Source of the DNA: Thamnidium elegans
Taxonomy: Eukaryota; Mucoromycota; Mucoromycetes; Mucorales; Mucoraceae
Length of the DNA: 64,000 bases
Assembly: GCA_025201345.1 (NCBI GenBank)
Contig: JAIXMG010000031.1
Coordinates: 186,001 to 250,000 of the forward strand
Direction of reading: 5' to 3'
Made by a program: the position numbers and the translations under genes. Of the stretch, positions 54,004 to 55,817 are shown piece by piece (position 1 is the stretch's first letter; every line of letters begins with the position of its first letter). The notes beneath the pieces are model-generated. The model saw only the letters and a list, made by a program, of their open reading frames with translations. It had not been told where the DNA came from and did not search any database.

Positions 54004-55817
54004 ATGAAGCTCGTGTTAACATGCTTATTCATTCTGGTTGCCATAGAAGCATATTTAGCACCCTTTACTAAAGTAGAAGAAAGTTTTAATTTGCAAGCGA
54101 CTTATGATATATTGCACAGTTCTTTTTCAAACTATGACCATATTCAATTTCCTGGCGTTGTGCCTCGTACATTTGTTGGGGCAACACTATTAAGTATATT
54201 AAGCTATGCATTTATTCCTTTTCTTGATTTATTACAACAACAAGTATTGGTACGTGTTTTATTAGGTGGTTGTGTCGTTTTATCGATTGGTAAATTTTGT
54301 TCGGATGGTGTTAGTGCATTATTTGGAAGGACAACAGCTCGCATAACTATCTTATTGATGCTATGTCAATTTCACCTCGTGTTTTGGGTCTCTCGTACTT
54401 TACCAAATATGTTTGGATTACCATGGGTTGAGTTGGGTCTCTCCCATTGGTTGATTAGTTTGTCTCGTACCAGTGATAGTACCTATCAGTTAAACTGGAT
54501 GATTCGATACTTGACATTTGCTGGTATCGTGTTTCGATTTGAAATTGGTATTTTACTTGTCATTTTAGTATTGACCGAAATTTATTATGGTCGCTTGTCC
54601 TTTGTTGCAAGTATAAAGCAAATGGTTGTTACGGCAATTATTAGTTTAATTATAACTGTACCACTTGATTCCTTCTTTTGGAATCAATGGATATGGCCTG
54701 AGGGTATCGTGTTTTATTTTAATGTCATCTTAAACAAGAGTTCTCAATGGGGTACTTTGCCTTTCTATGCTTACTTTTTAAAGTTTTTACCACGCTTGCT
54801 GCTCATCTCTTTCCCCTTGTCAGCGTTGGCTTATGTAATCGATAGTCGTGTAAAACGTATGTTGACTCCCATGTTGATCTATGTCGCCGTTTTCTCATGT
54901 TTACCCCACAAGGAGTGGAGATTTATTGTGTATACTCTACCCGTTTTTACTGTCGCGGCCGCGGCTTCCGTAACTTGGTTTATCAATAGAGCTTGTCGGT
55001 CTTTGTTTTATCGAATGGTATTAGTCGGTGTTGCAGTCAGTTATGTGATTTCATTTATGGTCTCTCTGAGTGCTTTTCAAATATCACGACATAATTATCC
55101 CGGTGGCGAAGCATTATTTACATTACACCAGATTGAAAAGGATAATCAGGTACGTGTTCATCTTGATACCGAAACGGCCATGACAGGTGCTTCGCTATTT
55201 GGGCAGACGAACCCGAATTGGGTTTATTCTAAAAATGAAACTCATCATTCACAACACGATTTTATTGAAGGAAGGTATACTCATCTAATTACATCTAGAC
55301 CTGAAAAGTTCGACACATCCTTGTTTGAAGTAATTGATCAAACTTATGGTATTGATAAAGTGGAATTGAAAAGTTTAGAAGAATTGATTGCATCGATTAA
55401 ACAATTCGATTTTTCATATTTGAATGTAAAGTTAGTACCAAAATTGTTTACAATCAAGTTGATTGATCCTCAAAAGACTTGGGTTCAATCTACGTTACGC
55501 AAATATCCTGTTGTACTCTATAGTAAAACTTACTGGTAAATATAGATTTTTGTTTTTATTATAAAAATATATACTTATTTTTATTTTTTAGTCCCTATTG
55601 TAAAGCAGCAAAACAATTGATATCAAAATATTGTGATGATATTCATGTGATTGAAGTTGACTTGGAACAAGATGCTAGAGATATTCAACAAGCTCTTTAT
55701 GACTTGACTGGTCAATATACCTTTCCAAACTTGTTCCAGAATCAAATTAGTCTCGGCGGGTTTGATCGTTTGTCGGAATTGGATCGGAAGGGAGAGTTGA
55801 ATTTATGTAAAAAATAA
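54004..55817 (+). CDS. ALG12: ALG12 alpha-1,6-mannosyltransferase fused to C-terminal glutaredoxin
   Basis: Exons 54004-55535 and 55592-55817 give 585 aa. Residues 1-497 are a complete ALG12 (GT22), the ER enzyme that adds the eighth mannose to the dolichol-linked N-glycan precursor: APFTKVEESFNLQATYDIL near the N-terminus, FPGVVPRTF, WVSRTLPNMFGLPW, VPLDSFFWNQWIWPEGIVFYFNVILNKSSQWG, PHKEWRFIVYTLP and HNYPGGEAL. Then, without a break, KYPVVLYSKTYCPYCKAAKQLI, the HVIEVDLEQDARDIQQALYDLTGQYTFPNLF block (cis-Pro) and ISLGGFDRL form a full glutaredoxin with CPYC at 511-514. The first Cys codon is split by the 56-bp intron (TG|T). Retention of the intron gives ...YW and a stop at 55537-55539. The ATG 54004 begins MKLVLTCLFILVAIEAYLAPF. 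It shares a 292-bp divergent promoter with the arrestin-like gene. Confidence 0.9.

Follow-up and report, generated by a model that had tools for sequence, protein, structure and literature searches.

An in-frame fusion of the ALG12 mannosyltransferase with a C-terminal glutaredoxin in Thamnidium elegans, other Mucorales and Umbelopsis

The window analysed here is a stretch of 64,000 nucleotides of the Thamnidium elegans genome (assembly GCA_025201345.1, contig JAIXMG010000031.1, positions 186,001 to 250,000, forward strand). Within it, a single gene of two exons at 54004-55817 (+) encodes an ALG12 mannosyltransferase that continues, at its C-terminus, into a complete glutaredoxin. Translation of the exon join gives 585 residues followed by a stop. 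Features of this locus, numbered from the first letter of the window, are as follows.

54004..55535, + strand: exon 1, 1532 nt, residues 1-510 and the first two bases of codon 511 (Cys); covers ALG12 completely and, of the glutaredoxin, helix 1 and strand 1; identical to the public protein P0001
55536..55591, + strand: intron, 56 nt, GT-AG, GTAAAT...TTTTTTAG, 9% G+C, phase 2, splitting the codon of the first Cys in CPYC
55592..55817, + strand: exon 2, remaining glutaredoxin (residues 511-585) and stop
54004..55467, + strand: ALG12 part, residues 1-488, family GT22; membrane part to about residue 356, then a C-terminal domain that by homology would face the lumen
54067..54090, + strand: acidic motif TKVEESFN of the first lumenal loop, residues 22-29, found in 19/19 fused proteins longer than 480 residues
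54907..54924, + strand: HKEWRF motif, residues 302-307; H302-F307 invariant in a 41-row alignment
55468..55535, + strand: exon 1 portion of the glutaredoxin, residues 489-510 (helix 489-500, strand 503-507)
55592..55601 (the Cys511 codon starts in exon 1, with 55534-55535), + strand: active site CPYC, residues 511-514
55632..55634, + strand: Cys525, first of an extra cysteine pair, in 32/34 fused rows
55719..55727, + strand: TFP, the cis-Pro site of glutaredoxins, residues 554-556; T and P invariant in 13 aligned tails
55755..55760, + strand: GG of the glutathione site, residues 566-567, invariant in 13 aligned tails
55806..55808, + strand: Cys583, second of the extra pair, in 32/34 fused rows

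The fusion, which a preliminary description of this DNA had read as a whole ALG12 and a whole glutaredoxin in one frame, is confirmed. Splicing completes Cys511 of CPYC (TG^T, phase 2), and the unspliced frame runs immediately into a stop (..SKTYW*). A Pfam search with the 585-residue product places both domains above their cut-offs, PF03901 at residues 4-356 (E 6e-42, 144.7 bits versus a cut-off of 23.8) and PF00462 at residues 503-561 (E 5e-14). The public gene model INT48_004922 (P0001), which lies on a separate T. elegans contig of 19,798 bases, is 100% identical across the 585 residues. When the assembly (34.1 Mb, 64 contigs) was searched for copies, the sole matches spanning the ALG12 part or the entire tail were the two exons of the gene itself; two further glutaredoxin genes match the tail in part, at 39-41%.

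A homologue search returned 1646 matches at E <= 0.001, the best 120 of which were listed. Both Pfam domains occur in 38 of the 120 matches listed, an identical architecture that excludes chance, and these two-domain proteins represent 30 named genera, among them Mucor, Rhizopus, Lichtheimia, Phycomyces, Absidia, Apophysomyces and Umbelopsis. The alternative that two neighbouring genes were merged by gene prediction, or that the site is misassembled, is barely credible: some public models, among them P0017 of Mucor lusitanicus, do break off at the intron, and SK(T/S)YW is the end of 21 of the 120 open reading frames (ORFs) listed, but exon 1 already contains helix 1 and strand 1 of the glutaredoxin, uninterrupted by a stop, no in-frame ATG occurs after codon 393, a long way upstream of the tail, the architecture is repeated across the 30 genera, and two ORFs (P0005 and P0023) are intron-free. 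This alternative was rejected on the reading frame of exon 1, the architecture of the relatives and the single locus in the assembly.

Umbelopsis belongs to a different class and order (Umbelopsidales) from Thamnidium (Mucorales), and the other 29 genera with the fusion, Thamnidium included, belong to the Mucorales. Outside these groups, hmmscan of single proteins from Rhizophagus clarus, Jimgerdemannia (Endogonales) and Dissophora (a Mortierella relative) detected no glutaredoxin, and the ALG12 of all three ends soon past the last ALG12 strand. A single gain preceding the split between Mucorales and Umbelopsidales would be the simplest history, and the fusion is a candidate shared derived character of the two orders. 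A region search with residues 484-585 retrieved 23 proteins among 53 candidates, all of them ALG12 fusions except one ALG12 exon-1 ORF; it overlooked known fusions (both Umbelopsis rows, Lichtheimia and Rhizopus arrhizus) and sets no limit on the distribution. Some records within the group lack the tail. That of Mucor mucedo (P0022) may be a gene-model error, a similar ORF (P0014) ending in ..YSKTYW, and that of Hesseltinella (P0072) is partial. The Sporodiniella ALG12 record (P0050, one model) also lacks it, as judged, like the case of Rhizopus microsporus treated below, from protein records. Sporodiniella also encodes a free-standing glutaredoxin (P0123) with a CPYS site and a hydrophobic stretch at its N-terminus, and such a gene exists in T. 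elegans too.

The position of the intron in other Mucorales was read from ORF ends. Those ending exactly at SK(T/S)YW include P0052, which is 84% identical to an Umbelopsis ramanniana protein, and five exon-2 ORFs begin at SPYC or SPFC (P0122, P0127, P0138, P0200 and P0240), their nearest relatives being Mucor, Helicostylum, Backusella, Rhizopus-type and Lichtheimia proteins. The intron thus appears to occupy the same position in these relatives, which fits one origin of the fusion. As for the two ORFs that cross the junction without an intron, P0005 occupies most of a 1823-base contig and terminates in IGRAHV*, the translation of the Illumina adapter; P0005 therefore derives from assembled short reads, probably of cDNA. 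The other, P0023, agrees at 75 of 76 residues with the exon-2 ORF P0240, which is preceded by an intron. We take the source label 'lgn' to denote public sequencing runs after assembly. Retention of the phase-2 GTAA intron (55536-55591) must yield a 511-residue ALG12 without a working glutaredoxin, and a regulated choice between the spliced and the 511-residue forms is possible.

Structure comparison gives 36% identity to chicken ALG12 across 465 aligned residues, and the fold aligns to about residue 487 with ALG12, ALG9, ArnT and STT3. By predicted fold, this part is nearer ALG12 than ALG9 or other GT-C enzymes, and its homology points to alpha-1,6 mannosyl transfer onto Man7GlcNAc2-PP-Dol. 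Average hydropathy, condensed by eye, gives 11 membrane segments. Homology with the published ALG12 model would place the glutaredoxin in the lumen of the endoplasmic reticulum (ER), and the physical link at the ER membrane that had been proposed for the two activities is supported. The lumenal domain carries a sequon, NET/NES at 55234-55242 (residues 411-413), within YSKNE(S/T)H, which many Mucorales and Glomeromycotina rows share; exceptions are Pilobolus, Lichtheimia and Umbelopsis. Shorter ALG12 entries differ at the other end: among those listed, 17 of 19 entries picked below 480 residues begin at a Met equivalent to residue 166 (MIRYLTF..) and do not include the first lumenal loop (P0003 of T. 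elegans, P0028, P0031, P0034 and others). Since the T. elegans DNA upstream of Met166 (54004-54498, residues 1-165) is in-frame and open, this start looks like an error shared between annotations.

The tail shows the marks of an intact glutaredoxin. The T. elegans protein carries the active site SKTYCPYC with its preceding Lys, and in 13 aligned tails (chosen from 38, with the CPYS and Cunninghamella tails left out) the S, K, Y and both Cys of the active site, T554, P556, G566, G567 and D569 are invariant. A glutaredoxin fold is predicted over the full length of the tail. For yeast Grx6, a Lys and a Thr are named as conserved glutathione contacts (excerpt of PMC5053157), and in our own mapping these appear to have counterparts in the tail. 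Cys511 is present in 34/34 fused rows and Cys514 in 32/34; among 37 fused tails, CPYS is restricted to Cokeromyces and Benjaminiella. Median identity to P0001 among 33 fused relatives is 57% for residues 167-356, 53% for residues 357-485 and 56% for the glutaredoxin, near-equal values which argue that the tail is constrained about as tightly as the enzyme.

The conserved cysteines of the tail are four (511, 514, 525 and 583), and the second pair, Cys525 with Cys583, sets the tails apart from stand-alone glutaredoxins. Both are present in 34 of 37 fused tails, and cysteines occur in both places in one of 114 stand-alone glutaredoxins (Neocallimastix P0207), under a loose criterion that accepts a Cys 12-16 residues past the first active-site Cys together with any Cys from 8 residues past GG to the end. 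The count covers 37 of the 38 two-domain matches, Syncephalastrum P0038 being left out (intron translated in the model) as were both Cunninghamella rows (no CxxC/S match), and has Thamnidium, Parasitella and Mucor lusitanicus entered twice; the 114 stand-alone proteins remained after removing six exon-2 ORFs from 120 stand-alone matches. Joint presence and joint absence suggest a Cys525-Cys583 disulfide, which would fit an oxidising compartment. The cysteines of the ALG12 part in fused rows are C121 (16/18, in a membrane segment), C299 (13/34), C99 (2/18) and C331 (2/30), so that no loop cysteine is conserved in the ALG12 part of the fused proteins, the remaining ones being rarer or at the membrane. 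These counts bear on a thiol switch in which the glutaredoxin would open or close a disulfide or glutathione adduct on ALG12 itself and so regulate mannose addition. The two domains are physically adjacent, as such a switch would have them, but the lumenal loops conserve no cysteine for it to act upon, and self-regulation of ALG12 by its tail is highly improbable.

The origin of the tail was approached with a tree of 55 glutaredoxins: 24 fused tails, 29 stand-alone rows of the 114 and two T. elegans paralogues, with yeast Grx6/Grx7 not included, one of 30 intended stand-alone rows (P0232) dropped as its motif was absent, and the bootstrap not fully settled. A branch (support 96/88) separates all 24 fused tails, together with 11 of the stand-alone rows, from cytosolic rows, plant rows and the two paralogues. 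The 11 rows form a group of their own (99/98), 10 of them having CPYS or CPFS and three (P0123, P0141 and P0208) a hydrophobic N-terminal stretch seen by eye; we term them Grx6/7-like, following the account of such proteins in PMC4765768 (excerpt). As the tails share this side of the branch, their donor was probably a secretory-type glutaredoxin.

A separate T. elegans gene, L018 (G000:C8:258554-259261), has a CPFS site and an N-terminal hydrophobic stretch (read by eye) and looks like a type II membrane-anchored glutaredoxin of the Grx6/7 kind. It was overlooked by the PF00462 genome search, whose 7 matches are not a full census. The fusion as a replacement for an anchored Grx6/7 protein was rejected, L018 being present in the same genome. 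The contrast drawn earlier with yeast, where Grx6 and Grx7 are separate proteins, is softened by this gene. Introns interrupt the active site within four bases of one another in three T. elegans glutaredoxin genes, at TG^T in the fusion and, as judged by eye, at C^CT in L003 and CC^A in L018; in a fourth gene, L002, the intron lies elsewhere, before IFSK. At most, these positions hint that the tail was acquired as a gene already containing an intron. The intron of L018 falls inside a Pro codon, one codon from that of the fusion.

With a Grx6/7-like gene elsewhere in the genome, a secretory glutaredoxin is seemingly already present, and the tail might be a passenger, a second lumenal glutaredoxin sharing transcript and location with ALG12 and having no role in N-glycosylation. 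The seeming loss of the tail in R. microsporus would agree with this. Such a passenger is nonetheless distinctly improbable, since 30 named genera retain the tail, which is about as conserved as the enzyme, and none of the 29 stand-alone rows placed in the tree (of the 114) falls among the fused tails.

Taken as a whole, the explanation that we hold to be rather probable is that Mucorales and Umbelopsis have an ER-resident protein of two domains. One of them, ALG12, would transfer the alpha-1,6 mannose onto the lipid-linked precursor of N-glycans; the other, a dithiol glutaredoxin, would form the C-terminus and face the lumen. ALG12 would act as a membrane anchor and keep the glutaredoxin inside the ER, at the meeting point of glycosylation and protein folding. 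Using glutathione, and with Cys511 attacking first, the glutaredoxin would deglutathionylate or reduce disulfides of neighbouring lumenal proteins, its target probably not being ALG12 itself; the extra Cys525-Cys583 disulfide would stabilise the tail in an oxidising compartment. Family knowledge suggests this redox activity and these partners; direct observation covers the fusion and its distribution, the intactness of the active site and the pattern of cysteines, next to the predicted folds.

Several observations weigh against this explanation. Both Cunninghamella proteins found, which lie outside the 34-row set, have SSEC or SVEC in place of CPYC and have lost Cys511, so that catalysis is not needed there; in the Cunninghamella blakesleeana record P0076, Pfam/hmmscan shows no glutaredoxin and the tail is degenerate. 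The R. microsporus ALG12 (P0032, 11 members) stops short of the tail, which seems to have been lost. The extra cysteines are both absent from Rhizopus arrhizus P0016 and P0023 (Rhizopus type), probably through one event; in P0005, the third tail without the full pair, the end is adapter sequence. As to topology, K+R per residue is 0.18 inside, 0.09 outside and 0.17 in short lumenal loops, and the charge rule is undecided. Because of Cunninghamella, where the fold is still predicted without the catalytic cysteine, the main rival is a structural or docking module, in which the thioredoxin fold would pack on the lumenal domain of ALG12 to stabilise it or bind a partner enzyme, redox activity being secondary. 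We regard this as unlikely: a pure scaffold would not require the CxxC or CxxS found in 37/37 other tails, nor the invariant glutathione-site residues of the 13/13 aligned, the alignment behind the P0077 model is full of intact tails and favours that fold, and P0032 seems to manage without the module. The physical linkage between N-glycan synthesis and thiol redox control proposed in the preliminary description stands, and a functional one is not borne out, given the lack of a conserved ALG12 loop cysteine, the lost catalytic cysteine of Cunninghamella and the tail seemingly lost in one species.

The mannose added by ALG12 is later read by ER-associated degradation. A further proposal, which we consider quite unlikely, is that ALG12 has become a bifunctional redox-glycosylation enzyme in Mucorales and Umbelopsis, the lumenal glutaredoxin sensing or setting the local glutathione state and thus coupling client thiol chemistry with completion of the glycan signal on one polypeptide. 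Independently of mechanism, the lineages sampled offer a natural experiment on glutaredoxin function in the ER lumen, since most keep the tail, Cunninghamella keeps the predicted fold only and R. microsporus has seemingly dropped it. The two-domain architecture is already visible in public protein records; no description of the fusion was found in the open-access PMC literature searched, in line with the earlier view that it was undescribed.

Compared with known systems, the protein resembles ALG12 (GT22, Dol-P-Man:Man7GlcNAc2-PP-Dol alpha-1,6-mannosyltransferase) over its whole length, in fold and in family motifs, but the solved chain aligns to residue 488, where the T. elegans protein continues into the glutaredoxin without a linker. 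With yeast Grx6/Grx7 and fungal Grx6-like proteins the tail shares the character of a class I secretory-pathway glutaredoxin (excerpts of PMC4765768 and PMC5053157), and a branch of the tree leaves the tails and the CPYS-type rows together on one side. Those proteins differ in their CxxS sites and in an N-terminus that itself supplies an anchor or signal, whereas the fusion tail is mostly CPYC, directly follows ALG12 at the C-terminus and has a second Cys pair. PMC4765768, which covers Rhizophagus glutaredoxins and has Rhizopus oryzae in its tree, gave no match for "mannosyl", and the word is likewise absent from the main text of PMC2679010. Glutaredoxins joined to another domain are known from thioredoxin glutathione reductase and from TRX-GRX fusions (for the latter, excerpt of PMC2679010). 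In both, the partners are redox domains and not a glycosyltransferase. Ost3/Ost6 (MAGT1/TUSC3) has a thioredoxin-like fold and is not known as a glutathione-using glutaredoxin; it is a separate subunit of the oligosaccharyltransferase, acting at the transfer step and not in precursor synthesis. As a lumenal oxidoreductase within the N-glycosylation machinery (excerpt of PMC7563561), it is nevertheless the nearest working parallel. If the proposed role is true, a lumenal glutathione-using oxidoreductase in the precursor step would add to Ost3/Ost6 a second, independent connection of thiol redox chemistry with N-glycosylation.
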